NCBI GenBank assembly: GCA_026988015.1
Contig: JALSMA010000063.1
Span: 1 to 38,782, forward strand
DNA from: Desulfobulbaceae bacterium
GTDB lineage: Bacteria > Desulfobacterota > Desulfobulbia > Desulfobulbales > Desulfocapsaceae
DNA length: 38,782 nucleotides
Direction: 5' to 3'
The notes under the pieces: generated by a model
Database searches by the model: none
What the model was told of the DNA's origin: nothing
The model's input: only the letters and a program-made list of their open reading frames with translations
Made by a program: the position numbers and the translations under genes
Shown here: positions 19,576 to 38,093 of the stretch, one piece after another
Numbering within the stretch: position 1 is the stretch's first letter
Layout: each line of letters opens with the position of its first letter

Positions 19576-19621
19576 TAAGAAATAGTAAAATATTTTGTAC
19601 CTTTTTAAAGTACACTCGGTA

Positions 19622-20164: not shown

Positions 20165-20233
20165 TATCGAGCTCCTGAGCGCTGTCTACTTATCAGATTT
20201 TCCACACTCCCATAGCTTCTGAAGTATATACCC

Positions 20234-20809: not shown

Positions 20810-20848
20810 TGCCCAACTATGCAGTACTGACAGAGCAGCAATGTTAAT

Positions 20849-22045: not shown

Positions 22046-23316
22046 AAAACAGTAGTGTCAAATCCACCATAGGCTACATTTTAAAGGGCTATCCACGAAT
22101 TTCAGAAACCTTTATTTCCAACGAGATACTACTTCTCGAACAGCTTGGTTTCAACCTGCACCTCTTCCCCATGCGACACCCCAGGGAGGACTTCTGCCAC
22201 GACTCTGTCAAACAGATCATGGCAAAGGTTGATTATCTCCCTACAGAGTTATTACTGGACTTTCCGCGCCTGCTGCTTCCCAATATTTTTCTCGCTGTCA
22301 AAAGGCCAGACTTGTTCAAACAAGGTCTTAAACTTGCTCACAAACGTTACAAACGAACCGCGAACCTGGCCACATTCAAGCACCTCCTCCAGGCCGGTTA
22401 TCTCTGCAACTCCCACCTCCTGAAACACAATTCAATAGCCCATCTCCATGGTCACTTTGCCCACTCTCCCACTTCAGTAACCATGTTTGCCGCCCTCCTC
22501 TCCGGTAAAACCTTCAGTTTTACAGCTCATGCTAAAGATATCTACACCTCAAATACAGAGCAACTCCGTGAGAAAATTCGACTGGCAGAATTCGTCATCA
22601 CCTGTACAGACTACAATCGCAGATATCTTGAAAAAACAGCAGAAGGCCTTGGCACCCCCATTCACTGCATCTATCACGGTATTGACCTGCAACTCTTTTC
22701 TCCTGCCACTGATCACACTGTATGCAGTCCTCCCTATAAATTGCTCACCGTTGCCAGAATGACTGAAAAGAAAGGGCTGCCCACACTCTACAAAGCACTT
22801 CGGATCTTAAAAGATAATAACATTGACTTCCATCACACCCTGATTGGCGATGGTGATGACAAGAAAAATATCCTCCAGCTCATAGAAGATCTGGATATGC
22901 AGGCACACTGCTGTTGTCCGGGGACTCAAACCCACAGCGAAGTTTTAAAGCAGTTTGAAGCCAGTGATCTTTTTGTGCTGGCCTGTGAAATAGCAGCCAA
23001 TGGCGACCGTGATGGTATCCCAAACGTACTGGTGGAGAGCCTGGCCATGGGTGTTCCTGCACTTTCCACCACTGTTTCTGCTGTCCCCGAAATTCTTATT
23101 CATAACAGAAGTGGAATCACCATCTCCCCGTCACAACCTGAAGAAATGGCCGCCAATATAACAGAACTTCTCACCAATGGTAACCTCAGAGCACAAATCA
23201 TCCAGGGTGGAACAGAGCACACCAGGGAACATTTTAACAACCGGACACTTGTGGCTGCACTGGGCAATATCTTCCAGAAGCAACTGGAGCAAAACCGCAA
23301 CGCAGCTCTTTCCTGA
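22042..23316 (+). CDS. GT4 family glycosyltransferase (WcaL-like)
   Basis: This 424-residue retaining GT4 enzyme starts with YILKGYPRISETFISNEI, a block seen in colanic-acid WcaL-type enzymes. It has HGHFAHSPTSV in the acceptor domain, IYHGIDLQLFSP before the linker, and the E-x7-E donor motif region DRDGIPNVLVESLAMGVP. It transfers a nucleotide-activated sugar during polysaccharide or glycolipid assembly. It overlaps its neighbours: ATGA with the preceding gene and TGATG with the next. No signal or TM segment is visible. Sugar specificity cannot be read from sequence. Confidence 0.87.
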   Translation: MKNSSVKSTIGYILKGYPRISETFISNEILLLEQLGFNLHLFPMRHPREDFCHDSVKQIMAKVDYLPTELLLDFPRLLLPNIFLAVKRPDLFKQGLKLAHKRYKRTANLATFKHLLQAGYLCNSHLLKHNSIAHLHGHFAHSPTSVTMFAALLSGKTFSFTAHAKDIYTSNTEQLREKIRLAEFVITCTDYNRRYLEKTAEGLGTPIHCIYHGIDLQLFSPATDHTVCSPPYKLLTVARMTEKKGLPTLYKALRILKDNNIDFHHTLIGDGDDKKNILQLIEDLDMQAHCCCPGTQTHSEVLKQFEASDLFVLACEIAANGDRDGIPNVLVESLAMGVPALSTTVSAVPEILIHNRSGITISPSQPEEMAANITELLTNGNLRAQIIQGGTEHTREHFNNRTLVAALGNIFQKQLEQNRNAALS

Positions 23317-24443
23317 TGCGGATCTGTTTCTACGCGCCCTTCAAACCCCTTGGCCACCCCAATCCTTCCGGTGATCTTATCATCGCAACCGGACTCCGTG
23401 ATTTCCTCAAATCACGCGGACATAAGGTTTTAACGGCAAGCAGACTCCGATCACGCTGGCTGCACCTCAAACCCTGGCTGTTTCCCGAAGTTGTAAAAGA
23501 ATACTTCAACGCCGCTAAACTGACCCAGAGTTTCCGACCGGATATCTGGCTCACCTATCATAGCTACTACAAAGCACCTGATCTCCTTGGCCCCGGACTA
23601 TGCAGAAAGTTCAACCTCCCCTATTGTATTTTTCAGGGAATTTACTCCACAAAACAACGACGCAGCCTCAAGGGAAAAGCTGGTTTCTACCTGAATCGCC
23701 ATGCTCTGCTGCGCGCTGACCATATCTTCAGTAACAGAGCGCTTGACTACAAAAACCTGGAACGACTTATTCCAACCAGGCGCCTGAGCCACATCAAACC
23801 TGGTATTTTTCCTGAAATGTTTTATTTTAACAATGAGTCAAGAGAGCAAATACGTCGTACATGGCAGGCGGGTAATGAACCGGTTATCCTCTCTGCAGCC
23901 ATGTTTCGTCCTGATGTGAAGACTCAAGGATTGAACTGGATGATAAAGAGCCTTGCACAGCTGGCACACCAGGGGACGCCATTCAAATTGGTTATCGCAG
24001 GAGATGGCAGTGAACGGGAAACGGTGATGTCCCTTGCAGAACGCCACCTCCCTGGTCGTGTTTATTTCACTGGAAAGATAGAAAGGAAAAATATGTACCG
24101 TTTCTATTCAGGCGGAGATATCTTTGTCTTTCCCGGTATCAGAGAATCCCTGGGGATGGTCTTTCTTGAAGCCCAGTCCTGCGCACTTCCTGTAATCGCC
24201 TTCGACAATGGCGGTATCCCTGAGGTTGTTGCTCAAGACAAAACGGCTCTTCTCACCGCACCATTTGATACAGATCAATTCTGCTCTGCAGTCAAAAAGT
24301 TACTGCAGGACAAAGCACTACGTACTCGAATGGGAAAAGCTGCAGTAGCACATATTCGCAACAACCATGATCTCCAAAAAAACTACCTCCAATTTGAAAA
24401 AATTCTAATCCATCATGCAGAGTCTCATCAACGGACAGCATAG
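23316..24443 (+). CDS. GT4 family glycosyltransferase
   Basis: This 375-residue GT4 enzyme begins MRICFYAPFKPLGHPNPSGD, with the usual Gly-rich N-terminal loop. VILSAAMFRPDVKTQG starts the C-terminal domain. The donor motif FPGIRESLGMVFLEAQS holds the conserved Glu pair, followed by LPVIAFDNGGIPEVV. Its ATG shares one base with the preceding stop, and its 3' end overlaps the phosphatase gene by 29 bases. The long overlap is unusual even within this compact cluster. Confidence 0.87.
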   Translation: MRICFYAPFKPLGHPNPSGDLIIATGLRDFLKSRGHKVLTASRLRSRWLHLKPWLFPEVVKEYFNAAKLTQSFRPDIWLTYHSYYKAPDLLGPGLCRKFNLPYCIFQGIYSTKQRRSLKGKAGFYLNRHALLRADHIFSNRALDYKNLERLIPTRRLSHIKPGIFPEMFYFNNESREQIRRTWQAGNEPVILSAAMFRPDVKTQGLNWMIKSLAQLAHQGTPFKLVIAGDGSERETVMSLAERHLPGRVYFTGKIERKNMYRFYSGGDIFVFPGIRESLGMVFLEAQSCALPVIAFDNGGIPEVVAQDKTALLTAPFDTDQFCSAVKKLLQDKALRTRMGKAAVAHIRNNHDLQKNYLQFEKILIHHAESHQRTA

Positions 24444-25068
24444 CTCCGCAACCCTTATCGCCTTGCTACGCCATGGCAAAACCATATGGAACGAAGCAGG
24501 ACGCATCCAGGGTCATGAAAATTCACATCTCTCAATGACTGGGAAACAGGAAGTTCATGGCTGGGGACGTTTCCTGGCAGGCATCTCAATTGACAAGATC
24601 GTGGCAAGCGATCTGGGGCGTGTCAAGGAAACTGTGGCCATCCTGCAACAGTACAGAGAACCGCTTCCAGTAATATGGGAACCAGCTCTCAGGGAGCAGA
24701 ACTGGGGCGAGTGGGAGGGCTTGACATTTAAAGAACTGCAGGAGAAAAGCGGAACATTCCTTGAGCAACAGGTGCGGGCAGGGTGGGATTTTTGTCCTCC
24801 CCGGGGAGAGAGCAGGCGTGAAGTTCTACAACGGGTTCTACCCTCTGTTATAAACCTGGCAAAAAAATACCGGAATCAGCGAATACTTATGGTCTGCCAT
24901 GAGGGAGTTGTCAAATCACTCATCTACCATCTGGCAGGCAGAGCCTTTCTTCCAGAAGAAAAAACACTTCTCCAAAAACGTCTACTCCACCTTCTTATTG
25001 CAGCAAACGACAAACTCTCTCTGGGGCCTCTTAATATCTTTCCGGCAACAACAGGAAAAAAGAGATGA
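24415..25068 (+). CDS. Histidine phosphatase family protein
   Basis: This 217-residue branch-1 histidine phosphatase (phosphoglycerate-mutase/CobC-like) has the catalytic RHGKT (R19, H20), then SDLGRVKET, the acid REQNWGEWEG and the second His in VCHEGVV (H162). In this setting it probably removes phosphate from a phosphosugar or glycan intermediate, rather than acting in glycolysis or cobalamin synthesis; that is an inference from position. The ATG at 24415 lies inside the preceding GT4 gene. The stop overlaps the next ATG by four bases. Confidence 0.85.
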   Translation: MQSLINGQHSSATLIALLRHGKTIWNEAGRIQGHENSHLSMTGKQEVHGWGRFLAGISIDKIVASDLGRVKETVAILQQYREPLPVIWEPALREQNWGEWEGLTFKELQEKSGTFLEQQVRAGWDFCPPRGESRREVLQRVLPSVINLAKKYRNQRILMVCHEGVVKSLIYHLAGRAFLPEEKTLLQKRLLHLLIAANDKLSLGPLNIFPATTGKKR

Positions 25069-26234
25069 AGATAGCCTGCTACTGTCAGCATGTACTCGGG
25101 ATCGGTCATTTCCATCGTAGCCTGGAAATTTGCAAGACCCTGGCGACCAACCATGAAACCGTGATGATACTCGGTGGTCCAGATGTTGATCTTAAACAAT
25201 CTGCCGTTCATTTCCTCCAGCTTCCCGGTCTGCAGATGAATACAGATTTTTCAAATCTCCTGCCCTGTGAAAAAGACAAGGACCTTGAAGCAATTAAGCG
25301 CAACCGTAAACGCCTGCTGTTTAATTTTTTTGCCTCCTTTCAACCTGATGTCTTTCTGATTGAGCTCTATCCCTTTGGCCGGAAGGCATTTCGCTTCGAA
25401 CTCGACCCCATCCTCAAAGCAGTTGCAGCAGGAACCCTTGCCCCCTGCCTCAGACTCTGCAGCCTGCGCGATATTCTGGTGGAGAAAAAAGACAAGGCCA
25501 AATATGAAACAAGGGTACTGAAACAGTTACGCCACAACTTTGACGGCCTGCTGATCCACTCTGACCCTGCATTCATCCCCCTGCAAAAAACCTTTTCTAA
25601 TGTGAGCAGCATCCCGGTTCCCCACTATTATACCGGCTTTATCACCCCGGCAACTGCCGGAAGCAGCGGGACCAGTATCCGCAACGACCTTGGTCTTTCC
25701 CGACAGGACAGTTTGGTTGTGGCCTCCATCGGAGGCGGAAATGTTGGTGCCGAACTCCTCAAAGCCACCGCTGCCGCAACTGTTCTGTTGCAGAGGCAGA
25801 AGAGAAACATCCACGTCCACTTGTTCACTGGTCCTTACAGCGCCCCAAACCTTGCACAAGAAATAAACCAGCTCAGTGCCAACACTGTCATAGTACATGA
25901 TTTCTGTTCCAACTTTCCGCAGTGGCTTGATGCCGCAGATTTGTCCATCTCCATGGCCGGCTACAACACCTGCATGAACCTTCTTGCTGCAGGTATTCCG
26001 GCCCTGCTCTATCCATTTGGCCAGAACAGAGAGCAACACATGCGAATCACAGCCTTTACGAGTACTGCTGATTTCACCTTGCTTGAAGTAGAAGATCTTC
26101 AGCCTGAGTCCCTGGCTGCCAAGATTCTTCATCAGCTGAAATTCCCTAAAAAAAGACATCATGTTCAGCTGGACGGGGCGCCACAAAGTGCCGGGATGAT
26201 CAGTGACCTGCAACTCTGGAGCGAAACAGCATGA
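25065..26234 (+). CDS. MurG-like glycosyltransferase (second paralogue)
   Basis: This 389-residue GT-B protein has CQHVLGIGHFHRSL at the N-terminus, VVASIGGGNVGAELL in the middle and LDAADLSISMAGYNTCMNLL near the donor site, then QNREQHMRI. These blocks parallel YGLGHIRRS, GGGGDG and MGGYNTL in the gene at 20849. It starts with ATGA overlap to the phosphatase gene and ends with ATGA overlap to the deacetylase. Acceptor and donor are unknown. Confidence 0.83.
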   Translation: MKIACYCQHVLGIGHFHRSLEICKTLATNHETVMILGGPDVDLKQSAVHFLQLPGLQMNTDFSNLLPCEKDKDLEAIKRNRKRLLFNFFASFQPDVFLIELYPFGRKAFRFELDPILKAVAAGTLAPCLRLCSLRDILVEKKDKAKYETRVLKQLRHNFDGLLIHSDPAFIPLQKTFSNVSSIPVPHYYTGFITPATAGSSGTSIRNDLGLSRQDSLVVASIGGGNVGAELLKATAAATVLLQRQKRNIHVHLFTGPYSAPNLAQEINQLSANTVIVHDFCSNFPQWLDAADLSISMAGYNTCMNLLAAGIPALLYPFGQNREQHMRITAFTSTADFTLLEVEDLQPESLAAKILHQLKFPKKRHHVQLDGAPQSAGMISDLQLWSETA

Positions 26235-27004
26235 AGCCATCTAGTCTATATCAGCACCTTCCACACGACAGTGCATATCAGGTAAAAACAGCCGTTGAAA
26301 AGGGACTTGCCAGGGGCAACGGAGAGGCCACGATTTTTTTCCGCGCCGATGATATTGGAGTTCCTGGAAAACAGTTCAGCCAACTGATAAACCTTTTCAA
26401 CATCCACAAACTCCCCCTCTGTCTCGCTGTAGTTCCCACATGGCTCACCGATTCTCGCTTTCAATCACTTCAATCCCTCACTGGACCGTCCAGCTCACAA
26501 TGGTGCTGGCACCAGCATGGCTGGTGCCACAAAAACCATGAAGCGAATGGAAAGAAGCAGGAGTTCGGGCCATATCGACCCGCTGTCCGCCAAGTTGCAG
26601 ATCTTCTGAAAGGGAAAAATCGCCTGGAAAAAATCATGGCCAAAACTTTCTTTCCATCCTTTACTCCCCCTTGGAACCGCTGCACCATTGACACCCTCAA
26701 CGGGCTCAGAGAACTTGGTTTTTCAGCAGTCTCAAGAAGTAACAACGCCAGCCCTGCTCCACCTGCCGGTCTCCCTGATTATCAGGTAAACATAGACCTG
26801 CACACCAGAAAAGAAGACCACCCGCAGCTCGCATTCAATACACTCCTTCTTGAAATAGAACAAAGTATCAGCAGTGGTACGGCAGGGATTATGATTCACC
26901 ACCAACGCATGGATGAAGCAGCTGTTGCCTTTTTAGAAATCCTGCTGAGAACAGTCGCCGGCACCCATTCCCTCCATCCTGTTCAGTTCATCGATCTCAC
27001 TTAG
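26231..27004 (+). CDS. NodB-like polysaccharide deacetylase family protein
   Basis: This is a 257-residue soluble protein related to polysaccharide deacetylases. Conserved elements include FRADDIG (D40, D41, general base plus metal Asp), WCWHQHGW (H94, H96) and FTPPWNRC, then the C-terminal MIHHQRMD region. It would remove acetyl groups from an acetamido sugar in the glycan made by the cluster, balanced by the acyltransferase at the front. It lacks a signal peptide, so it would act in the cytoplasm on precursors. It is the last gene of the overlapping cluster, and a promoter for the next module follows at once. Confidence 0.78.
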   Translation: MKPSSLYQHLPHDSAYQVKTAVEKGLARGNGEATIFFRADDIGVPGKQFSQLINLFNIHKLPLCLAVVPTWLTDSRFQSLQSLTGPSSSQWCWHQHGWCHKNHEANGKKQEFGPYRPAVRQVADLLKGKNRLEKIMAKTFFPSFTPPWNRCTIDTLNGLRELGFSAVSRSNNASPAPPAGLPDYQVNIDLHTRKEDHPQLAFNTLLLEIEQSISSGTAGIMIHHQRMDEAAVAFLEILLRTVAGTHSLHPVQFIDLT

Positions 27005-27010
27005 GAAAGA

Positions 27011-27040
27011 TTGACAAAAAGAAGGAAAAAGCGATATGCT
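27011..27040 (+). promoter_or_regulatory. Sigma70-type promoter of the FtsX/ABC membrane module
   Basis: TTGACA (27011-27016), an 18-base spacer and TATGCT (27035-27040) match sigma70 boxes well. It lies 6 bases after the deacetylase stop and ~220 bases ahead of the ftsX-like gene, so the module can be transcribed apart from the glycan cluster. The leader contains a C-run and GGAGGG pairing near 27090-27110, but no known riboswitch class was recognised. Confidence 0.65.
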
Positions 27041-27261
27041 CCACATAGGTTGTTCTTTCACATTAATTTGGATCCGTGAACGTCGGCATGCCCCCCCCTG
27101 GAGGGAGGCAAAAAATTCCTTCGACCACACTTGGTGAGATATTTTACAATAGGCTTTCAATGTGTTACTAGGAACGCAATCACAAACCCGTCATAAATGC
27201 AGGTGTAATTCAACAGCATCACGCACCTCTTACGCCACTACCCCAGGGAAACAGAAGAGCA

Positions 27262-27912
27262 ATGAGACAACTGGTAGTTCTGCCATGGAAGCAGTCGCTC
27301 ATAATGTCATACAAGTCAATCAGGGCGCGTTTTTTTCGTTCTCTTGTCACCACCATGACCCTTGTTCTGGCTGTCTCTTTCCTTGCCTTCAGCCAAATCA
27401 GCATCGATATTGCAGATGCCATGCTGGTTTCAGACAACCCTGTTTTTCATCGCATCCTGCTCCAGTCCGGCTATGATATACTACCTGATGACGTCAGCCT
27501 TTCGGCATCACCAAAACAACGTTGGATAGTTGTCTTGTCACTCTTGGTTTGCGTGGTGGGAATCATTAACGCCCAACTCATGTCAGTGACAGAACGATTC
27601 AGGGAGATCGGCACCATGAAATGTCTTGGAGCACTTGACAGATTTATCGTGCGAATATTTGTGATGGAGGCTTCAATGCAGGGATTTGCAGGATCTGTCA
27701 CCGGAGCATTTGTCGGCGGAATTGCAGCCTGCTCCGGAGCGATCTTCCGTTTCGGGACAGATATTCTGCCAATCTTCCCATGGCAGGATATCCTCTCGAC
27801 TTCTGCCTTGGCCATAGGAACCGGCATAGGACTCAGCCTTCTCGGAGTATTATATCCCGCGATCATGGCCGCGCGAATGCAACCTGTGGAGGCCATGCGG
27901 GTCGAACAATAG
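27262..27912 (+). CDS. FtsX-type ABC permease, small form
   Basis: This 216-residue inner-membrane protein has about four TM segments (around 28-46, 88-106, 139-160 and 182-203). The FtsX hallmark TERFREIGTMKCLGALDRF sits between TM2 and TM3, and it ends PAIMAARMQPVEAMR. It lacks the large periplasmic MacB_PCD domain usual between TM1 and TM2; only ~40 residues are there. It would pair with the ATPase that follows and probably with the FtsX half of the 1604-residue protein. ATG 27262 follows an AGAAGAG sequence. Its stop is directly followed by the ATPase ATG. Confidence 0.85.
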   Translation: MRQLVVLPWKQSLIMSYKSIRARFFRSLVTTMTLVLAVSFLAFSQISIDIADAMLVSDNPVFHRILLQSGYDILPDDVSLSASPKQRWIVVLSLLVCVVGIINAQLMSVTERFREIGTMKCLGALDRFIVRIFVMEASMQGFAGSVTGAFVGGIAACSGAIFRFGTDILPIFPWQDILSTSALAIGTGIGLSLLGVLYPAIMAARMQPVEAMRVEQ

Positions 27913-28653
27913 ATGAACAGGGAAATGATAATAAAACAGATCGTTCGAGTCACCGGTGTCACCAAGGATTTTGACCTCGGAAAAATTGTGGTCAATGTAC
28001 TTAAGGGAATCGACCTCGAGATAGAGACTGGAAAATATGTCTCAATCATGGGGCCGTCTGGTTCCGGAAAATCCACCCTCTTTAATATGATCGGCGGTCT
28101 TGATAAGCCCACTGAGGGCAAAGTTTTTATAGACGAAGTTGATATTGCCCAACTCGATGCCTACGAGCTGGCCTGGCTGCGCTGCCGAAAAATCGGCTAT
28201 ATTTTTCAGACGTTTAACCTGATCCCGGTGATGACAGCCCTTGAAAACGTCACCCTGCCCATGACCTTTGCTGGAGTTCCCGGAGATACCGCTATTTCCC
28301 GTGGCATGGAATTGCTTGCCCAGGTTGGTCTTGAGGGCAGACACGCTCACAAACCAGCAGAACTCTCCGGTGGCCAGCAGCAGCGTGTGGCAGTGGCCAG
28401 GGCACTTGCCAATACACCATCAATTATTCTAGCAGATGAACCAACAGGAAACCTTGACCTCAAGACAGGAGAGGAGATCATATCCCTGCTTAAACAGATG
28501 AGTGAAGAACAGGGAGTGACTGTTATTTCCGCAACCCATGACTACAAAATGCTCAATGTCTCCGACCAGGTGATCTGGATTCGGGATGGCCGGGTTGACA
28601 AGATTCAAGACCGTGATGAACTTGAAATCCACACCGGAGGAATGAGCAGCTAA
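27913..28653 (+). CDS. ABC transporter ATPase, LolD/MacB type
   Basis: This 246-residue nucleotide-binding protein has Walker A GPSGSGKST at 47-55, Q-loop at Q99, signature LSGGQQQRVAVARAL starting at 151 and Walker B IILADEPTGNLD. The pattern is that of LolD/FtsE/MacB ATPases, which drive FtsX-type mechanotransmission rather than classical import. The first ATG directly abuts the permease stop; another ATG lies four codons further in (27925). Its partners are the flanking FtsX-type proteins. Confidence 0.92.
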   Translation: MNREMIIKQIVRVTGVTKDFDLGKIVVNVLKGIDLEIETGKYVSIMGPSGSGKSTLFNMIGGLDKPTEGKVFIDEVDIAQLDAYELAWLRCRKIGYIFQTFNLIPVMTALENVTLPMTFAGVPGDTAISRGMELLAQVGLEGRHAHKPAELSGGQQQRVAVARALANTPSIILADEPTGNLDLKTGEEIISLLKQMSEEQGVTVISATHDYKMLNVSDQVIWIRDGRVDKIQDRDELEIHTGGMSS

Positions 28654-28658
28654 CCATC

Positions 28659-31600
28659 ATGCCCTCTCTTAAGACTCTCTCTCTCATTGGGTGTATTTTT
28701 CTCCTCTCTTCACTGCTGGGCACCACACTGGCCTGTGCAGAACAACCCCTTTCTCTCCATGATCAGATTGTCGGGATCAGCAGTGCTGCAGAAAGAACCA
28801 CGGGGAGCGAGGGCTGCAGCAGCGCCGCAGAGTTTATTCGAGACCAGTTCAGATCCCTTGGTGTTGATCCTGAAACCTATAAGTTTCTCATCCCGGTTCG
28901 TCAATTCCAAGGTGCTGCACTCAGGGTAGATGATAAAAGTATCAACCTCAACACCCTCCGCTATAACGCCATTACGCCAGAAGCAACAGATGGTACCCTC
29001 GAAGGGGCTCTCTATTACGCAGGAGGCGGAGACTGGTCAGAGTTGCAAGGTCTGGCCATCAAAGATGCTATCATTATACTGGACAGCGAATCAGGTCAGA
29101 ACTGGCAACAACTGGCATCACTCGGTGCCAGGGCGATTATCTACAGTAATAAAGACAGCAAACCTGCAAAGTATGTCTTCCAGGAAAAAGAAGAGCTCAC
29201 CCCAATCCAACTCCCCTGTTTCTGGATAGATAAAGAGAGGCTCAAAGAGTTTTTTCCAGAATTTTCTTTTGACACCCCGGGACTCATTGCCGACAAAACC
29301 GGCATCACCTCAAAGGTTCAATGGCAGGAAGTTCTCTCGGAAACGATCTATGGAATCATACCAGGCACCGATCCTCAGCTGAAACAAGAACTTCTGATAC
29401 TTGATGCGTTTTATGACAGTTCAGGCTTTGTCTCCAGCAGGGCCCCCGGTGCAGACGAGGCCAGTTCCATTGCAACCATGCTCCAGACAGCAGCAGCATT
29501 GCAGCAGAACCCACCATCCCGTTCGGTTCTGCTTGTGGCCAGCAGCGGTCACAATGAGGCCTTAGCCGGTGTACGGGAGATACTCTGGAGTATCAACTCC
29601 AAATCAAAACAGTTGCGAAGACAAAAAAAAGAACTCAAAAAAGGTATCGCTGAAACAAAATCCCACCTCGAGGCCCTGCAAAACATTTCCTGGCCCCTGC
29701 AGAATGACCCAGAGCGTGACTCTATCATAGCCATTGCCATAGAGGAACACCTGAAACTTTCGGTTGACACCATCTCCCGGGAGCTCAACCGCCTCCGCTT
29801 AAGCAATAGCACCATTCCGGAAAACAGTGGAGAGATCAAACGACTCTCAAAGATCCGTATGCTCTACCGACGCCTTGGATGGCGCAAGACTTTCCACAAC
29901 ATGGGGGTTGACGAGGCTGAGATGTTCCGTAAGGCCATCCCTGCATCCATTGCGATCAACAAGAAACGCAAACAGGAACTCAAGACCCAGATGAGTTGCC
30001 TGAAGAGCAGTTATGCCTTCAGGAATCTCCTCTCCGACTATGACATAGCTGCCTTTATTTCACTCCATCTTTCCAGTCACGGTAATGGCCTCGGTGCTTT
30101 TCACCAGGGATTTCTTTACAAGCTGAAGGCCAGAGTCAACCGGACAGGCATATTCTCAGTCATCGCAGACCTCCTTGATAAGACAGCAGCCCAGAGCAGC
30201 AGTCAGACCCGCTATGTCAACACCCTGCGTCCCAGTCGCCTGCGTTCATGGGATTCCTGGTTTCTTGACACACCCCCTCTTGGCGGAGAAGTTGCTTCCC
30301 TCGCCGGCCTGCTTGGCATTACCCTTGTGACCACCGGCGACTCCCGTGCGGCCTGGGGAACGCCCTGGGATAATCCCGAAAACATCAACTGGGACAGTCT
30401 TGAAAACCAGGCTCTCCTTGTACGTGACATGGTTACTGCAATGGCCGGAAACACTCCTCTGCAATCAGGAAGACTACCGCGCAATGGATTCTCAACGGTA
30501 ACAGGTCGCGCCAACCTCCTGCTTCAGGGTGAACTTTTTGCCGACCACCCTGCTGCAAAAACCGTTCTTCTCGCTTACCAGGGAGACCAGAAGTACTACA
30601 GTATGGTGAACTCTTCCGGTACTTTTCGCATCAAAGGGGTGGCAGATAAAAAACATGTTCTGGACAAGGTTATCATCGAAGGATACCGCTTTGACGAACA
30701 GAGCGGCCGGGTACTTTGGGCCATTGACAAAAAACAGACAGGAAAGAACAACTACCGCCTCAAGATCAGACGCAGTGAAACCAAAACCGATCTTATTCTC
30801 TTCAGCTGCAGAGAGACAACCATCTTTGGGCTACTGGAACCAAGAAATTTCAACTATCTCACCAAAGTAGAACTCCTTGACGGCAGGCGGGATGCCCCCC
30901 CCGCCCATTACTGGTACAGCCGGATTGACACCCGCAACTCCACCATGGCCTCCATCTACACCGAACCGGGTACATGGCTCAAGGCCACCCTCTCTGATAA
31001 TGTCCTGACCCGTAAGATGATCCTTATTAACGGGACTCAGCACAACTCAATGGGCCTTGGGTATCCCGTTGACACCTACAGCCGCATAGACAACACAGTT
31101 TACCGGGCAGCCCGGGATATATGGACTCTGCTCTCTCCCAGAATCAAAAACCTTGAAAAACACGGCATTTACGATGATAAAATAAGCCAACTGGAGGTAC
31201 GTGGCCTCACAGCACTGATACGTGCAGAAACCAGCCTCAAAGCGTATGACTACAAAACATTCAGCAGTGCCGCCTCCGAATCCATGGCCCTTGCCAATCG
31301 GGTCTATGTGCAGGTAGAAAAAACTCAGAAGGACGTACTCTTCGGAGTACTCTTCTATATCGCACTCTTTGTTCCTTTTGCCTTCTGCATGGAACGTTTT
31401 CTTTTTAATTTCGCAAACATATACAAACGAATCATCGCCTTCTGCACAATCCTGATTATCCTCATCACCATAATATATCAGGTACACCCCGCTTTCCAGC
31501 TCGCCTACAGTCCCACTGTGGTTATCCTGGCTTTCTTCATCCTCGGCTTGTCACTGATGGTAAGCCTCATCATCTTCTTCCGCTTTGAAGAAGAGATGAT

Positions 31601-33473
31601 TCTCCTGCAACGCCGGGCCAGTCACAAACGCCCCTCTGAAATCAGCCACTGGAAGGCCTTCACCGCCGCATTCTTCCTTGGTGTTTCAAACCTCAGACGG
31701 AGACGGGTGCGCACCATTCTCACCTGCCTGACACTCATCATCCTCACCTTTACCATCATGAGTTTTACCACAGTAAAATCTGGTGAACGACAAAGCCGGC
31801 TCCTCTTTCAGGAAACATCACCTTACCGCGGACTTCTTCTCAAACGGGTAGACTGGCGCAGCCTGCCAGTGGAAGCCGTATCCAGCCTAGTTGACAGTTT
31901 CGAGGACACAAAGGGTATTGCCCCGCGTATCTGGCTTGAGGCACACAACCCCAGCCAGGCAGTGCATGTCCCCCTGCAACATGGTGACAACAGGGCCGAA
32001 CTCGAGGGTTTGATAGGACTTTCCCCCTCGGAAGCAGATATCACTGGACTGGACAAGCTGATGCAGTCCGGCAGGTGGTTCAACAGCAATGACCGTCTCA
32101 GCATCATTTTAGATCATGATATGGCGGAGGCCCTCCAGGTAAAAAGCGATGGCAGTTCTACAATACAGCTCTGGGGCTCCCCCTTCACCGTAATCGGGAC
32201 ATTCAGGGGTGCAGACTTTGATCAGGCCCTTGATCTCGACGGTGAACCCCTGACTCCAGTCACCTTTCCGGAAGATTCGGGAACAGAAATCACAGAAGTC
32301 GAACAGGAGGCCATGGAATCAGGGGATGATATTCGTTCTTTTCAGAGCAGATATCACCATATTCCAGCCTCTCAAGTGGCCATTATACCAGCATCCACCC
32401 TGCTCACCCTCGGCGGAAAACTCAAAAACCTGGCCGTACTCCCACAGAACAGTACCTCTATCAGTGCAACTGCAGAGTCTCTGGTTGACCGTTTCTCCAT
32501 GGCTATTTTTGCGGGTGAAACCGATGGGGTCTGGCTCTATAACCAGAGTGACTCCATCCAGTACAGTGGTGTACCCAATATCCTCATTCCGCTTCTTATC
32601 TCTATCTTTATTGTACTCAACACCATGATCAGCTCCGTCTACGAACGGAAAAATGAAATTTCCATATACACCTCAGTGGGTCTGGCTCCCTCCCACGTCT
32701 CCTTTCTCTTTGTTGCTGAGGCACTGGCACTTGCCGTTATATCGGTGGTTCTGGGATACCTGCTGGCACAGGTGTCCGCCTCGCTCTTTGCAGGAACCAG
32801 CCTCTGGGCTGGACTCACTGTGAACTATTCATCCATGGCCGGTGTTGCGGCAATGGTACTGGTCATTGGAGTAGTACTGCTCTCTGTTATCTACCCATCC
32901 CGGGTGGCTGCAAAAATTGCCATTCCCGATGTCAATGCTAACTTCAGTCTCCCCGTACCGGTGGACAACCGTATCAGCATAACCCTGCCCTTTTTCATGA
33001 AGTATGAAGAAAATGACTCCATCGGTGGATTTCTATTCAGTTACTTCAAGTCACACCAGGATGTCTCCCATGGACTCTTTTCCACCGGTCCTGTAGATTT
33101 AATCTTCAGCTGCTGCAACATTGAGGAAATGCGAAACCTGGTCAAAAATGCTGCGGAACCCCGTTCCATCTACTGCACCTATATCCGGTCAAAGGTGTGG
33201 CTTGCTCCCTTTGACTTCGGCATCATGCAGTGGGTAGATATTCAGTTCTGCCCGGTGGATGGCAATGCAGCCTACCTGGAGGTCAAGGTTACCATGGAGC
33301 GCCGTTCCGGTGAAGAACAGGTGTGGCAAAGAATCAACACCTCCTTTATTCATGACTTAAGAAAACAGTTACTGGTGTGGCGTTCCATTGACGATTCCAG
33401 CCACAGCCATTTTGCAGCAATTTTCCAGAAGATAGCTGCAGAGAGCCAGGTAGAGGAAGGAGGCAGGCAGTGA
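28659..33473 (+). CDS. Giant fusion of degenerate M28-peptidase-like domain and FtsX permease
   Basis: This is a 1604-residue membrane protein. A signal peptide (about 1-28) is followed by an M28-like periplasmic domain (about 30-620) with an inserted charged helical segment (about 312-430), then a CarboxypepD-reg-like beta domain (about 625-720). Three TM segments follow (about 900-985). An FtsX unit comes next: a TM near 1030, a MacB_PCD-like periplasmic part, and three TMs about 1300-1430 with the hallmark YERKNEISIYTSVGLAPSHV. A soluble C-terminal domain of ~180 residues ends it. The M28 metal motif AHYDS is here AFYDS (F251), and GEE is GHN (297-299), while PGAD (D266) remains. Hydrolytic activity is therefore doubtful. 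The stop overlaps the next ATG. Confidence 0.82.
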   Translation: MPSLKTLSLIGCIFLLSSLLGTTLACAEQPLSLHDQIVGISSAAERTTGSEGCSSAAEFIRDQFRSLGVDPETYKFLIPVRQFQGAALRVDDKSINLNTLRYNAITPEATDGTLEGALYYAGGGDWSELQGLAIKDAIIILDSESGQNWQQLASLGARAIIYSNKDSKPAKYVFQEKEELTPIQLPCFWIDKERLKEFFPEFSFDTPGLIADKTGITSKVQWQEVLSETIYGIIPGTDPQLKQELLILDAFYDSSGFVSSRAPGADEASSIATMLQTAAALQQNPPSRSVLLVASSGHNEALAGVREILWSINSKSKQLRRQKKELKKGIAETKSHLEALQNISWPLQNDPERDSIIAIAIEEHLKLSVDTISRELNRLRLSNSTIPENSGEIKRLSKIRMLYRRLGWRKTFHNMGVDEAEMFRKAIPASIAINKKRKQELKTQMSCLKSSYAFRNLLSDYDIAAFISLHLSSHGNGLGAFHQGFLYKLKARVNRTGIFSVIADLLDKTAAQSSSQTRYVNTLRPSRLRSWDSWFLDTPPLGGEVASLAGLLGITLVTTGDSRAAWGTPWDNPENINWDSLENQALLVRDMVTAMAGNTPLQSGRLPRNGFSTVTGRANLLLQGELFADHPAAKTVLLAYQGDQKYYSMVNSSGTFRIKGVADKKHVLDKVIIEGYRFDEQSGRVLWAIDKKQTGKNNYRLKIRRSETKTDLILFSCRETTIFGLLEPRNFNYLTKVELLDGRRDAPPAHYWYSRIDTRNSTMASIYTEPGTWLKATLSDNVLTRKMILINGTQHNSMGLGYPVDTYSRIDNTVYRAARDIWTLLSPRIKNLEKHGIYDDKISQLEVRGLTALIRAETSLKAYDYKTFSSAASESMALANRVYVQVEKTQKDVLFGVLFYIALFVPFAFCMERFLFNFANIYKRIIAFCTILIILITIIYQVHPAFQLAYSPTVVILAFFILGLSLMVSLIIFFRFEEEMILLQRRASHKRPSEISHWKAFTAAFFLGVSNLRRRRVRTILTCLTLIILTFTIMSFTTVKSGERQSRLLFQETSPYRGLLLKRVDWRSLPVEAVSSLVDSFEDTKGIAPRIWLEAHNPSQAVHVPLQHGDNRAELEGLIGLSPSEADITGLDKLMQSGRWFNSNDRLSIILDHDMAEALQVKSDGSSTIQLWGSPFTVIGTFRGADFDQALDLDGEPLTPVTFPEDSGTEITEVEQEAMESGDDIRSFQSRYHHIPASQVAIIPASTLLTLGGKLKNLAVLPQNSTSISATAESLVDRFSMAIFAGETDGVWLYNQSDSIQYSGVPNILIPLLISIFIVLNTMISSVYERKNEISIYTSVGLAPSHVSFLFVAEALALAVISVVLGYLLAQVSASLFAGTSLWAGLTVNYSSMAGVAAMVLVIGVVLLSVIYPSRVAAKIAIPDVNANFSLPVPVDNRISITLPFFMKYEENDSIGGFLFSYFKSHQDVSHGLFSTGPVDLIFSCCNIEEMRNLVKNAAEPRSIYCTYIRSKVWLAPFDFGIMQWVDIQFCPVDGNAAYLEVKVTMERRSGEEQVWQRINTSFIHDLRKQLLVWRSIDDSSHSHFAAIFQKIAAESQVEEGGRQ

Positions 33474-35467
33474 TGTCTAACCAGCAACCAGCCACCATCA
33501 TCCGGCTACGTGCCATTATTGCAGGAATCATCCTGGCTGTTGCCATCTGCCTCCTCACACCATTCAACAATATCTACCAGCAGGCAACCCCCCTCGGTGG
33601 CGGTCATTTCCCACTGGCACCATTTTTTATTTTCATCCTGCTGGTGATTTTCACTGCGGTCAGCGCCAGAATATTTCACAGTAAAAATCTTCTCTTCAGT
33701 GGCAGTGAACTGCTCATCATCTGGATTGAGATGGTCATCGGATCCGGAATCGCTTACACTGGCCTTGCCAGAACTCTGCTCCTCAACCTGACCACCCCCA
33801 TTCACTACGCAACCATTGGAAATCAGTGGCAGGAAAGCATTGTCACCCTTTTACCGCCCGGGATTGTGCCCGCAGATATTGGGGCAATCGAAATGCTCTA
33901 CCGCGGCATTCCAGGTGGTCGCAGCATGAGTTGGTTTGAAGTGGCCGCAGCCATCCCCTGGCAGGCATGGATCTGGCCACTGCTGTTCTGGGGTATTTTT
34001 ATCATGCTCGCCTATGGTTTCATGCTCTTTGTTATCAACATACTTTCCCGACAGTGGATTCACAATGAACGGATCAACTTCCCCCTGTTACGGGTTCCTG
34101 AAATGCTGAGCAGTTCACTTGACCAAGGAAAAATCGGCAGCTTCTTCAGGAACAGGTTTCTGCTTGCCGGGCTGTTTATCCCAATATCCCTTCACCTCTT
34201 GAACGGCCTCCACTTCTACTATCCGTCAATTCCCCAGCTCTCCACCCTCATCCTTGCCGGGCCCTACTTCCCGGACCATGGTATTTTTGCAGGTTTCCAT
34301 AAACTAAAGATATATATATACCCCGCTTTCATCGGTTTTGCCTTTCTCACATCCCGCCAGATTTCATTCAGTTTCTGGTTCTTTTTTATTCTCGGTGGGC
34401 TGGTAACCGGTATCCTCGGGATCCTTGGATACAATATTCCTGCCTCAGAACTTGGCATCACCTTTGGCCCCACCCTTGCTAGACCTGAAGAAACCCAAAT
34501 GATCGGTGCCTACGGCATATTCTTTGTCTTTCTGATCTGGCTGGCTCGAAGCCACCTTCTTGAGGTAACAAAGGAGTCCTTTTTCCTCTCAAAACCGACA
34601 CAATCCCGCACAGAGTGGTTTGATGTACGAGTCTCCTTCTGGGGGGCAGTGTTCTGCTTTACAGCACTTCTCTACTGGGCAGTGTACCTTGGGATGAGCC
34701 TGCTCACGGCCACCCTGTTTTTCAGTGCCGCATTTATGATAATGCTGGTGGCCACCCGTATTATCTGCCAGGGAGGACTGGCATATTTCACCCTCACTGC
34801 TGCCCCCATGGACGGTCTTCTGGTCATGGGTGGGACAAAACTCTTTGGCGGCATCAACGGCCTGCTCTCTGCGATGTCCCAGAAAGTTCTCTTTGTGGAT
34901 CTGCGTGAGTCTTTGATGCCATCACTGCTGCATGCCAGAAAACTGAGTCATGGTAAAAATCCAGGAATATTGATTTTCTCAGGCCTCTTTTTCACCATTC
35001 TCACCAGCCTAGTTGCCTCCATTCTTGCCATGATGACGCTTTACTACCGCTATGGAACGCGAGAGTTGCAGATGGAATGGGCAAGCAGAACAACGGTTAC
35101 AGTTTTTGAAAACGCCCACAGACTGGTCACAGCACCAATTGAAAGCGGTGGCTGGATCACCACTTTTGCCATTGTTGGTGCGCTGGTCATGCTGGTACTG
35201 GTGATCTGTTACCATCGTTTTTACTGGTGGCCAATTCATCCCCTTGGCTACCTCACCGCTTACAGTTCAGCAATGCGGATTCTCTGGGTCAGTTTTTTCA
35301 TAGGATGGGCCTGTAATGCTCTCTGCATGCGATATGGTGGGGTTTCACTCTTTAAAAAAATCCAGTTTTTCTTCATTGGACTCATCATAGGTGACTTCCT
35401 GATGGGTGGCGGCTGGGCGATCATTGGATTGTTTACAGATTCCGGCTATCAGGTACTGCCGGATTAA
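33473..35467 (+). CDS. Polytopic membrane protein, DUF6785-like (OPT-like), first of pair
   Basis: This 664-residue protein has roughly 14 hydrophobic segments spread over its length. The loop NERINFPLLRVPEML aligns by eye with EKLPFPMAPVGAL in the next gene. I recognise it as like the DUF6785/DUF6784 proteins that often occur next to FtsX and M28 genes; the resemblance to oligopeptide transporters (OPT) is an inference. The start is ATG 33473 (overlapping the preceding TGA), with AAGGAGG ~10 bases upstream; a GTG at 33470 is possible. Substrate and direction are unknown. Confidence 0.72.
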   Translation: MSNQQPATIIRLRAIIAGIILAVAICLLTPFNNIYQQATPLGGGHFPLAPFFIFILLVIFTAVSARIFHSKNLLFSGSELLIIWIEMVIGSGIAYTGLARTLLLNLTTPIHYATIGNQWQESIVTLLPPGIVPADIGAIEMLYRGIPGGRSMSWFEVAAAIPWQAWIWPLLFWGIFIMLAYGFMLFVINILSRQWIHNERINFPLLRVPEMLSSSLDQGKIGSFFRNRFLLAGLFIPISLHLLNGLHFYYPSIPQLSTLILAGPYFPDHGIFAGFHKLKIYIYPAFIGFAFLTSRQISFSFWFFFILGGLVTGILGILGYNIPASELGITFGPTLARPEETQMIGAYGIFFVFLIWLARSHLLEVTKESFFLSKPTQSRTEWFDVRVSFWGAVFCFTALLYWAVYLGMSLLTATLFFSAAFMIMLVATRIICQGGLAYFTLTAAPMDGLLVMGGTKLFGGINGLLSAMSQKVLFVDLRESLMPSLLHARKLSHGKNPGILIFSGLFFTILTSLVASILAMMTLYYRYGTRELQMEWASRTTVTVFENAHRLVTAPIESGGWITTFAIVGALVMLVLVICYHRFYWWPIHPLGYLTAYSSAMRILWVSFFIGWACNALCMRYGGVSLFKKIQFFFIGLIIGDFLMGGGWAIIGLFTDSGYQVLPD

Positions 35468-35470
35468 AAC

Positions 35471-35493
35471 GGTTTCGGGGTCAACCCGAAACC
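35471..35493 (+). terminator. Perfect 9-bp hairpin between the paired membrane-protein genes
   Basis: GGTTTCGGG, a 5-base loop and CCCGAAACC form a perfect stem four bases after the stop codon. No T-tract follows and the next ATG is 11 bases on, so partial attenuation or mRNA stabilisation is as likely as termination. Confidence 0.5.
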
Positions 35494-35504
35494 TCTTTGA
35501 AACT

Positions 35505-37463
35505 ATGTATGACGACAAAGAACTAAAAGAATATCGGGACCTTCTTAAGGCCCCGGATCATTTTGAAGAGGGCTTTGACTGGAAGACCATCGTGGGTGCT
35601 GTCTTCATCGGGTTTCTGATGATGCCTGGCTCCATGTATCTGCAGCTGGTCATTGGCCAAGGCATTGGCCCCGCTGCCCGTTGGGTAACTATCATCCTCT
35701 TTGCAGAGGTAGCCAAACGAGCCCATTCCGAACTCAAACAGCAGGAGATATTCCTCCTCTACTACATGGCAGGAGCAGCGCTGGCATCACCTTTTTCCGG
35801 ACTCCTCTGGAATCAGTACCTGGTGCAGTCCGATGCCGCACGAATGCTTGGGCTCACTGAATTTATTCCCTCATGGGTTGCACCAGGGCCCGATTCGCAG
35901 TCCATGGTCGAGCGAAGCTTTTTCCATCGCGACTGGTTAATCCCCATCCTGCTGCTTGTCGGATCGCAGATCATCCAGCGCATTGATCACTTCGGCTTGG
36001 GATACGCCCTGTACCGGATAACCTCTGACGTCGAAAAGCTCCCCTTTCCCATGGCTCCGGTTGGCGCACTCGGCACCATGGCCCTTGCCGAATCCACTGA
36101 AGATAAGAAAAAAAGCTGGAAGTGGCGTGTCTTCTCAATTGGTGGCGTCATTGGCCTGGTATTTGGCGCATTTTATGTACTGCTGCCCATCGCCTCCGGG
36201 CTCATTTTTAATGAACCAATCCGTCTGATCCCCATTCCCTGGATAGAACTCACCAGCCACACCGAGGACATATTGCCGGCTGTTGCAACGGGAATTCAGC
36301 TGGATCTGGGGCTGGTTTTCATCGGCATGGTGCTGCCATTCTGGGCTGTTATCGGTGGACTCATCGGACTGATTATCACCATCATCCTCAATCCCATTCT
36401 CTACGCCCAGGGAATCCTGCAGCGCTGGCATCCTGGAATGGCCACCGTCGATACTGTTTTTGCAAACAACTTTGATTTTTACATGAGTTTTGGAATCGGT
36501 CTGGGTCTGGCTATTGGGGTAATTGGGGTCTGGTCGGTGGTACGCTCCTACCGCAGTACCAAAGAACACATGGGAACATTGCAAGATCTCTTTCAGCCGC
36601 CTGAAGGGCGAGGCGATTTCAATTTCTGGATATCCATTGCGATCTACTTTTTTTCGACATTGGCCTATGTCGGGCTCTGCGTATGGCTGGTACCCAATTT
36701 CCCCTGGATATTTTTTCTCGGATACGGCTTTATCTATACTCCCATCATTTCTTATATTACCGCCCGAATGGAAGGGATAGCGGGACAATTCGTTAGCCTG
36801 CCCCTGGTCCGTGAGGCCAGTTTCATTGCCGGAGCACGCTATTTCGGATACCAGGGGATTGAGATCTGGTATGCCCCCATCCCCATTCATAACTACGGGG
36901 AGGCAACTGTTCAGTTCAGACAGATTGAACTGACCGGAACATCCATCCGCGGTATCATCAAGGCGGAGATTGTGGTCTTCCCCATAGTGATGGTGGCAAG
37001 TCTACTCTTCTCCCAGTTTATCTGGAGACTGGCCCCCATTCCATCAAGTGCCTATCCCTATGCCCAGGAACTCTGGCATCTTCAAGCCTTGAATACTCTG
37101 TTGATGCAGACCTCCACCATGGAAGGTAACTCCATGTTTTATCAGGCATTGAGCAGCACTACAGTATTCTCGGGGCTAGGTTTCGGCCTGCTTATGTATT
37201 TTATACTCAGCCTTTTTGGTCTGCCTATCCTGCTAATTTATGGTGTGGTCCGTGGCCTTGGACAATCCACCCCCCACGGTCTGATTCTCGAAGTTCTGGG
37301 CGCATTTCTTGGCCGTTACTTCTTTTACAAACGGTACGGACCGATGTGGAGACAATACGCACCGGTCCTGCTTGCGGGGTTCTCATGCGGAATGGGACTC
37401 ACCGGGATGTTTGCCATGGGACTCGCCTTGATCATGAAATCTCTGGGACACATGGCATATTAA
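35505..37463 (+). CDS. Polytopic membrane protein, DUF6784/DUF6785-like (OPT-like), second of pair
   Basis: This 652-residue protein starts MYDDKELKEYRDLLKAPDHFEEGFDWKT-like soluble residues, then ~15 hydrophobic segments. Recognisable loops are SDVEKLPFPMAPVGALG, LGYGFIYTPIISYITARMEG and YEIWYAP-like IEIWYAPIPIHNYG. It is a distant relative of the preceding gene and would form its partner. I chose ATG 35505; an in-frame upstream start at 35406 would lie inside the preceding gene and span the hairpin. No good RBS is visible. The stop is 8 bases from the convergent lipoprotein stop. Confidence 0.72.
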   Translation: MYDDKELKEYRDLLKAPDHFEEGFDWKTIVGAVFIGFLMMPGSMYLQLVIGQGIGPAARWVTIILFAEVAKRAHSELKQQEIFLLYYMAGAALASPFSGLLWNQYLVQSDAARMLGLTEFIPSWVAPGPDSQSMVERSFFHRDWLIPILLLVGSQIIQRIDHFGLGYALYRITSDVEKLPFPMAPVGALGTMALAESTEDKKKSWKWRVFSIGGVIGLVFGAFYVLLPIASGLIFNEPIRLIPIPWIELTSHTEDILPAVATGIQLDLGLVFIGMVLPFWAVIGGLIGLIITIILNPILYAQGILQRWHPGMATVDTVFANNFDFYMSFGIGLGLAIGVIGVWSVVRSYRSTKEHMGTLQDLFQPPEGRGDFNFWISIAIYFFSTLAYVGLCVWLVPNFPWIFFLGYGFIYTPIISYITARMEGIAGQFVSLPLVREASFIAGARYFGYQGIEIWYAPIPIHNYGEATVQFRQIELTGTSIRGIIKAEIVVFPIVMVASLLFSQFIWRLAPIPSSAYPYAQELWHLQALNTLLMQTSTMEGNSMFYQALSSTTVFSGLGFGLLMYFILSLFGLPILLIYGVVRGLGQSTPHGLILEVLGAFLGRYFFYKRYGPMWRQYAPVLLAGFSCGMGLTGMFAMGLALIMKSLGHMAY

Positions 37464-37471
37464 TCAGGGAA

Positions 37472-37969
37472 CTATCTGCTGTCGCGTAATTCCTGACGTG
37501 CACAAGCAGAAGCTCCTGCATGCATAAATGGAAATATTTCAACCACTCCTGGTGTTGGTTCGCGGATAGTTGTGGTGTCTTTTTTTGAGAACCAGACACC
37601 AATTTCCTTTCCATCAGGCGTAGTGAGTACTCCTCCTTGGTTGGTACAGAAGCCAACTTCATCAATTCGCATCCAGGCAACCATTTTGCTGAGTTCCTCG
37701 GAGGTCAGCTCTATTTTCATCCACAGTTCCGACTGCAGCTGATAGTCATTGGAGAGTGCGATAATGGCCACGGGATCATTCAAGACACCGTCCACGTAAT
37801 AGGTATGACCAGGAAGGATTTCCCCGGAATCAAAGATTACATCAACTTCCATCCGTTTTTGCAGTCCACCCGATGCTGCCAGAAGAGAGGCACATCCGGT
37901 GAAAATAACAGCAACAAGTAAAAGGATCATTACATATAAAAAAGGTGATACATATTTCTTTTTCAACAT
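37472..37969 (-). CDS. Predicted lipoprotein of unknown function
   Basis: This 165-residue protein has an N-terminal hydrophobic segment ending in a lipobox (VIFTGC), so it should be a lipid-anchored envelope protein. The mature part, ~138 residues, has no family I recognise. ATG 37969 has AAAGAGG 5 bases upstream; an in-frame GTG is one codon earlier. It is convergent with the membrane module and divergent from the next small lipoprotein. Confidence 0.7.
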   Translation of the reverse strand: MLKKKYVSPFLYVMILLLVAVIFTGCASLLAASGGLQKRMEVDVIFDSGEILPGHTYYVDGVLNDPVAIIALSNDYQLQSELWMKIELTSEELSKMVAWMRIDEVGFCTNQGGVLTTPDGKEIGVWFSKKDTTTIREPTPGVVEIFPFMHAGASACARQELRDSR

Positions 37970-38093
37970 CACAGCCTCTTTGATGATTGGTTGTTTACCA
38001 CTTCTGTATTTTGTATTGCAATAGCCCGGCGAATAGTCAAGTCTGCTTCAGCAGATTTTATACACTTATCTCATAAATTCAAGGTACCCGACC

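Follow-up and report, generated by a model that had tools for sequence, protein, structure and literature searches.

Among the adenosine triphosphate (ATP)-binding cassette (ABC) units of type VII (MacB/LolCDE/FtsEX-like), LolCDE serves lipoproteins (PMC5985334, in the excerpts available) and HgdD-DevBCA serves a glycolipid (PMC6161253, likewise in excerpts), and a periplasmic subdomain is, to the knowledge of the authors of the former excerpts, present in all type VII members. Here we describe a locus in a 38,782-nucleotide stretch of DNA from a Desulfobulbaceae bacterium (assembly GCA_026988015.1, contig JALSMA010000063.1), hereafter the window, to which all coordinates and strands refer. 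A module of five genes, lettered A to E, follows six genes that look like a cytosolic glycan-building pathway (20849-27004). Judged by its sequence, the A-B-C core of the module is a type VII ABC unit, with a small FtsX permease (A), an ATPase (B), and a second FtsX permease fused to a large ectodomain of M28 aminopeptidase fold (C); D and E are polytopic membrane proteins. The module and the glycan cluster very probably constitute one functional system (20849-37463). What this system does is a more tentative matter: our preferred reading, to which we give somewhat less than an even chance, is that the module exports or assembles, driven by ATP, a glycan or glycolipid made by the upstream set.

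The distribution of the two gene sets was followed across 297 genomes of the phylum and a separate set of 144 nearer relatives (genomes and loci are numbered with the prefixes G and L, respectively). In the phylum sample, D was above the cut-off in 20 genomes spanning 12 families, while a 21st (G001) held only a 70-residue D fragment below it. E was present in the identical 20 genomes, as were long matches to C (88 more genomes matched C weakly, in the FtsX region only among the matches listed) and GT28b, a glycosyltransferase of the glycan cluster (expectation value at most 2.2e-55). GT28 matches of about 1e-23 in G056 and G243 were on a par with the paralogue GT28a. The cluster's divergent polysaccharide-deacetylase-like protein (DAC) was present in 18 of the 20. 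Among the nearer relatives, 47 carried both E and GT28b, 89 carried neither, three had E only, and five had GT28b only. For seven of these eight discordant genomes the contig ended before the partner, and four of the five GT28b-only contigs carried A and B; the remaining genome, G315 (72% complete), was not accounted for by a contig end, the first 9,000 of the 10,081 bases of its contig with GT28b only having been examined. The carriers are relatives of sulfate-reducing bacteria, a group with a role in sulfur cycling.

Both sets were patchy and often adjacent, with 18 of the 41 loci used to count gene order (see below) having GT28b on the same strand in the 10-kb upstream flank, as might be seen if linkage had kept them together in a few lineages without any common function. 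However, GT28b was unlinked to the module in seven of the 20 genomes: it was 1.2 Mb away in G277 and 290 kb away in G106, 70 kb from E in G254 (with B-C on another contig), and on a different contig from the module in G026, G073, G213, and G295, where the stretch around GT28b held no module gene. The two sets were divergently oriented about 8 kb apart in G161, and about 7 kb was inserted in G105. In ten genomes (G073, G106, and eight others), DAC sat apart from GT28b and from the module alike; in those eight, the surrounding 13.7-16 kb held no other gene of the set. Because seven genomes keep both sets though unlinked and DAC is separate in ten, linkage fails to explain the pairing; the spread over 12 families and the contig ends behind seven of the eight exceptions also speak against it, and we consider co-inheritance without common function very improbable. 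The occurrence of GT28b in exactly those genomes with C, D, and E, the seven unlinked cases included, instead points to a single system, and this genome-by-genome pairing predicts that deletion of either the module or the glycan set should abolish the same surface product. An earlier, sequence-only reading of this DNA treated the five genes as the unit; it was right that they form a conserved module but missed the adjacent glycan cluster, which co-occurs even when unlinked and extends the functional unit upstream to about 20849.

For gene order, loci were retrieved with D as the sole bait, and the best 80 of 99 confirmed loci were taken. Their labels, as given, were mostly Desulfo- or Deltaproteobacteria, a few just Proteobacteria or Pseudomonadota, and the nearest were Desulfocapsa-like; a Desulfogranum species and Desulfatibacillum alkenivorans were also represented. 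Order was counted in the 41 that had at least 9.8 kb upstream and at least 2.6 kb downstream, the other 39 being too short and dropped. A-B-C-D-E were found in this order on one strand in 38 of the 41, and, in loci with enough flank for each comparison, C preceded D in 63 of 64 and E followed it in 66 of 68. Since these loci were fetched by D alone, the five-gene grouping is not chance. The exceptions were L048, to which we return below, L057, and L068, the last with a partial C and no E. We observed that L057 had a full-length D with just fragments of C and E, apparently an incomplete second copy on chromosome CP070652.1, which carries the full module at L072. In the 47 loci with all five genes, median identity to the window was 83% for E, 79% for B, 60% for D, 58% for A, and 51% for C. 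Searches of viral contigs returned no relative of D, and searches of plasmids none of C or D, E lying outside these searches.

Within the window, A and B abut, B and C are 5 bp apart, C and D overlap by 4 bp, and 37 bp lie between D and E. The earlier description of five same-strand genes was thus borne out by gene coordinates and ordered loci alike, and that of overlaps or tiny gaps held up to D, E not overlapping its neighbour. The promoter that it assigned to the module corresponds to a sigma-70-like match (10/12) inside the 257-bp gap between the glycan cluster and A, a class of site that was not clearly enriched over shuffled sequence (15 observed versus 10.5 ± 3.4). Rare adjacency of the five genes had been named beforehand as the outcome that would refute the module; the named loci showed the opposite, yet four of the 20 phylum genomes had it split. 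Separately, a 9-bp inverted repeat (35471-35493) was noted in the D-E gap, with a similar hairpin in L022 and none in the other gaps inspected. A lipoprotein-like gene downstream (37472-37972, minus strand) was considered as a further member and dropped, its only matches among 101 loci being in L025 and L098, with many loci ending nearby.

The glycan cluster comprises four glycosyltransferases, a histidine-phosphatase-superfamily protein, and DAC, and was conserved across neighbourhoods from GT28a onward, while annotated neighbours further upstream varied from genome to genome. No initiating phosphoglycosyltransferase, flippase, or polymerase was among the listed matches of the six core genes. 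Likewise, for Wzx/Wzy or ABC-2 export, no flippase, polymerase, or ABC-2 gene was found among the Pfam matches of the genes at 19595-37463, within which E has no family and could be of an unknown type. Some variation around the cluster was also seen. A gene for a hexapeptide acyltransferase-like protein, directly before GT28a (20234-20809), had a positional relative only in G105 among the neighbourhoods compared, and is thus accessory at most. In G026, a radical SAM/SPASM protein (L205:8563-9528) was located within the cluster at the usual position of the histidine phosphatase, and in G135 a gene for the exo-beta-N-acetylmuramidase NamZ (L193:14186-15382) adjoined it. Further away in the window (5733-7859), a chemoreceptor combines a zinc-binding CZB domain with a hemerythrin domain at its C terminus and may sense oxygen or redox state.

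For the module proteins, a length filter retained 50 of 51 A, 50 of 52 B, 55 of 83 C, and 46 of 87 E proteins. The retained A orthologues were 211-232 residues long, so that the 216-residue FtsX protein of the window is not a fragment. Just 42 residues separate the first two hydrophobic segments of A, which argues that A has no periplasmic subdomain; the periplasmic core (Porter) is therefore not shared by all permease subunits here. Walker A and B motifs were present in all 50 B orthologues and LSGG[QE] in 48. Against NCBIfam models, B scored 222.3 bits for LolD, 220.3 for MacB, and 203.5 for FtsE, with DevA also among the better models, and the best model for A was LolCE. All of these scores were under the equivalog cut-offs, whether for LolCDE (A, 46.7 versus 362.45; B, 222.3 versus 307.75), MacB (PRK10535; B, 220.3 versus 966), or FtsE and FtsX (B, 203.5 versus 264.85; A against FtsX_Gneg, 27.5 versus 255). 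The proposals of two FtsX-type permeases and a LolD/MacB-type ATPase were both upheld, with A (60 bits) and C (45.2 bits) above the Pfam cut-off for FtsX (PF02687, 25.5 bits), and B having intact motifs, a clear ABC_tran match, and LolD and MacB as its best models.

C was analyzed in an alignment of 32 sequences (the window and 31 of the 55 filtered proteins). By hydropathy, it consists of a signal-like segment, an ectodomain of about 865 residues, three transmembrane (TM) segments, an FtsX half, and a C-terminal domain. The FtsX half, of which YtrF is a sequence neighbour, has a MacB-like periplasmic core of about 270 residues between TM1 and TM2, with a profile match to MacB (5lil_A) and a marginal Pfam match (MacB_PCD, PF12704; cut-off 27 bits). 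The predicted structure of residues 27-893 had a mean predicted local distance difference test score (pLDDT) of 91.4, and matched the aminopeptidase BSAP (6hc6_C; Z 27.9, root-mean-square deviation 4.8, 375 residues aligned) and transferrin receptor 1 (Z about 25), the fold search being informative up to about residue 608 and barely probing the model beyond. Transferrin receptor 1 is an M28-fold protein that is not a peptidase. The helical insertion within the M28 fold of C contained helices of up to 42 residues. A further fold search against viral proteins gave one match at an expectation value of at most 0.001, a baseplate protein with TM-scores below 0.1, and was not used.

Most of the zinc-ligand and catalytic residues of the M28 site have been replaced. 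The first zinc His was Phe in 31 of the 32 sequences and Pro in one, in the Glu-Glu pair the first position was His in 30 and the second never Glu (Asp in two), and the last zinc His was Gly, Ser, or Asn in all 32; Asp266 was kept in 31. An active M28 peptidase was accordingly rejected, and because of these replacements the domain is most likely a pseudo-peptidase. The functional Glu-to-His mutant named in the title of PDB entry 2anp, itself among the fold matches, means that loss of the catalytic Glu would by itself be no proof of inactivity; the lost His ligands count for more. Three conserved His residues, H470 (32 of 32), H474 (31 of 32), and H298 (30 of 32), may mark a remodelled or other binding site. 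The M28-like periplasmic domain fused to a permease was hence recognized correctly from the sequence, while its pseudo-enzyme state had gone unnoticed. The three extra TM segments that precede the FtsX half contained many invariant columns, and they are a possible docking site for D and E. A and C would thus pair unequally as permeases, the sole large periplasmic part being that of C.

These features bear on two alternatives to export or assembly. In the first and principal one, the unit would transport nothing, and would act in the manner of FtsEX-EnvC, with ATP moving the arm of C so that it switches on or positions a periplasmic enzyme such as a glycan ligase, polymerase, or hydrolase, perhaps D or E. 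The FtsX permeases, together with a pseudo-peptidase fold and long helical insertion in one ectodomain, are consistent with such a regulator, as is the performance of work in the periplasm by motion of these units (PMC5985334, in excerpts). However, no conserved periplasmic enzyme was found beside the module in the neighbourhoods examined (gene picking in one scan being crude), and B prefers the LolD and MacB models over FtsE, by a small difference. On balance we find a regulator unlikely, yet serious enough to be kept in view. In the second, the ABC unit would sense envelope stress or an inhibitor as BceAB or Ytr systems do, and share just a lifestyle with the glycan genes. In BceB, too, a single periplasmic domain serves two permease halves (PMC5985334, in excerpts), and the proximity of YtrF to the FtsX half of C fits as well; the lack of a recurring regulator or two-component pair beside the module in the neighbourhoods examined (with crude gene picking), and the presence of GT28b in all 20 module genomes, even where unlinked, make this sensor improbable.

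Turning to the membrane proteins, both DUF6785 and DUF6784 were matched by all 64 aligned D orthologues. E was an orphan. At an expectation value of up to 10, the 37 aligned E sequences (the window and 36 of the 46 filtered proteins) gave chance-level matches only and had no Pfam family, and none matched DUF6785 or DUF6784, as a second member of these families would. Of the 46 filtered E proteins, 38 were 652-653 residues long, which places the start of E at 35505 and not at 35406 as first assigned. Mean column identity across the E alignment was 88%, and identity to the window exceeded that of the ATPase in 45 of 47 loci; it is unusual for an orphan membrane protein to outdo its own ATPase in conservation. 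The prediction of about 14 TM segments in each protein compares with 15 hydrophobic peaks in D and 13 in E, rough counts from hydropathy.

The idea that D and E are distantly related, OPT-like proteins went unsupported. OPT (PF03169) matched none of the 37 E or 64 D orthologues at an expectation value of up to 10; in the window's own genome it had no match at D or E, and its only match, on another contig, scored 12.7 bits. Alignment with hhalign gave a probability below 1% against OPT for both proteins, with an OPT profile of two near-identical sequences and a shallow E profile. Likewise, no relationship was detected between the D and E profiles, which are shallow enough that a shared fold is possible. 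An OPT identity of D and E was set aside on the missing PF03169 matches, the profile comparisons being negative but weak. The lack of an OPT match also counts against an importer that would bring in an oligosaccharide or peptide through D and E, aided by the ABC unit, for processing by the cytosolic enzymes. M28 and PA folds are known from peptide-binding and peptide-cutting ectodomains, and the deacetylase and phosphatase could be catabolic, but four glycosyltransferases point to synthesis and the neighbourhoods examined, a partial view, contained no recurring catabolic enzyme or receptor. Salvage of this kind has, in our estimation, little probability.

Table 1. Coordinates in the window of the glycan cluster, the module, and the features within them (GT, glycosyltransferase)
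Feature	Position	Strand	Basis
GT28a, GT-B glycosyltransferase (MJ1255/MurG-like), first core gene	20849-22045	+	Pfam Glyco_tran_28_C; weak NCBIfam MJ1255/MurG
GT4a glycosyltransferase	22042-23316	+	nearest NCBIfam EpsE, under cut-off
GT4b glycosyltransferase	23316-24443	+	nearest models BshA/EpsE, under cut-off
Histidine-phosphatase-superfamily protein	24415-25068	+	His_Phos_1 150.7 bits
GT28b glycosyltransferase	25065-26234	+	Pfam; presence tracks module genome by genome
DAC, divergent polysaccharide-deacetylase-like protein	26231-27004	+	DUF2334, under cut-off
Sigma-70-like promoter match	27011-27040	+	10/12; not above chance as a class
A, mini-FtsX permease, 216 residues	27262-27912	+	PF02687 60 bits
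B, LolD/MacB/DevA-type ABC ATPase, 246 residues	27913-28653	+	ABC_tran 117 bits
C, 1604-residue fusion	28659-33473	+	FtsX 45.2 bits, M28 32.0 bits, MacB_PCD 27.3 (cut-off 27)
C residues ~31-608, PA and pseudo-M28 aminopeptidase fold	28749-30482	+	model pLDDT, fold search, active-site losses
C residues ~303-458, long helical insertion within M28 fold	29565-30032	+	DSSP of model
C residues 893-972, three TM segments after ectodomain and before FtsX half	31335-31574	+	hydropathy over alignment
C residues 1021-1411, FtsX/MacB-type permease half with periplasmic core	31719-32891	+	Pfam MacB_PCD and FtsX; hydropathy
C residues 1412-1604, C-terminal domain	32892-33470	+	conserved columns; cytosolic side from hydropathy topology
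D, DUF6785 and DUF6784 membrane protein, 665 residues	33470-35467	+	549.7 and 125.5 bits
E, orphan polytopic membrane protein, 652 residues	35505-37463	+	orthologue lengths, alignment, hydropathy

Under the preferred reading of export or assembly, the six cytosolic enzymes would make an oligosaccharide or glycolipid product, perhaps de-N-acetylated, and ATP binding by B would move the A/C permease pair. This motion would be passed by mechanotransmission to the pseudo-M28 arm of C, which would bind rather than cut the product or a periplasmic partner and thereby drive export or assembly. D and E would be membrane subunits that carry, anchor, or transfer the product, and E, whose conservation equals or exceeds that of the ATPase, would be the likeliest core of the transfer step. 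This scheme is least certain in its export or assembly step and in what D and E do, their roles having been drawn from position and co-occurrence.

Several observations weigh against this scheme. Co-occurrence indicates shared function, not export, and the values of Fisher's test behind it (GT28b, 1.6e-31; DAC, 1.2e-25; nearer relatives, 2.0e-28) ignore phylogeny. DAC had no orthologue at an expectation value of at most 1e-10 in G213 and G277, members of one genus, and conversely was found in G255, which has no module, with a weak match in G118. ATP hydrolysis by MacB does not carry substrate over the inner membrane (PMC5985334, in excerpts), such that crossing by a unit of this type would need D and E or an unlinked flippase, and the E model, with a pLDDT of 38.7, gives no structural support for a channel. 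Moreover, L048 had a D homologue (L048:10001-11983, 60% identity) with no orthologue of A, B, C, or E within the 22-kb locus; DUF6785 is used independently there, or the locus is an artefact of binning. The five genes are also not inseparable. In the 20 module genomes, B adjoined C in all 20, D adjoined E in 19, A adjoined B-C in 18, and C adjoined D in 15. No A was seen beside B-C in G254 and G295, in searches confined to that position. C and D were 2.8 kb apart in G161 and 12 kb apart in G106, and lay on different contigs in G254 and G295, where the stretches beyond C and D exclude a simple contig break; in G073, E was mid-contig on another contig than D, while in G213 the C-D adjacency was interrupted by a contig break.

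In G106, G161, G254, and G295 (L202/L203, L188, and L224-L227), A-B-C (or B-C) was separate from D-E. As these are found apart, the module may consist of two sub-modules, A-B-C and D-E.

Searches of the open-access literature found no mention of DUF6785 or DUF6784 and no paper on the combination of FtsX and M28 or related terms. The earlier view of the module as a conserved but undescribed membrane system accordingly stands for that literature. Sequence comparison assigns the ABC core to a known superfamily, while no known counterpart was found for E or the whole pathway. That the locus represents a new route of glycan or glycolipid export or assembly, without Wzx/Wzy, ABC-2, or synthase, in which a type VII unit with a dead M28 arm works with D, a new and extremely conserved polytopic family (E), and the six enzymes of a dedicated cytosolic pathway, is a possibility that we regard as rather doubtful. 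Were D and E to form the transport or transfer step, bacteria would have a new route for glycans or glycolipids across or onto the envelope. DUF6785 and DUF6784, and the Pfam-less family of E, in any case gain a first functional context.

Comparison with known systems places the locus near several of them. With LolCDE it shares one ATPase and two different FtsX-type permeases, but its A has no periplasmic domain, its C bears an M28 fold, and the equivalog cut-offs were missed. With FtsEX-EnvC it shares an FtsX permease driving a periplasmic arm made of a helical part and a dead metallopeptidase, EnvC having a coiled coil and a degenerate LytM domain. Here, however, the arm is fused to the permease and has an M28 rather than a LytM fold, and no link to division was seen. 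The PA and M28 fold is common to C, transferrin receptor 1, and the active aminopeptidase BSAP, but in C alone of these is it the ectodomain of an ABC permease with a long helical insertion. The A/C pair with its one large periplasmic part is similar to BceB (PMC5985334, in excerpts). MacB and MacAB-TolC have in common with the module an FtsX-type permease with a MacB-like core (marginal for PF12704), an ATPase of LolD/MacB class, and, probably, mechanotransmission. Unlike these, the module has no MacA or TolC gene; its ATPase is separate, its permease pair is unequal with one partner devoid of a periplasmic domain, and it has a pseudo-M28 ectodomain of about 865 residues, three extra TM segments, and two added polytopic proteins. 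Finally, the heterocyst glycolipid exporter DevBCA also has a MacB-like ABC unit (PMC6161253, in excerpts), and DevA was among the better models for B; the module has no DevB-like adaptor or TolC-like gene, and it carries the pseudo-M28 ectodomain together with D and E.

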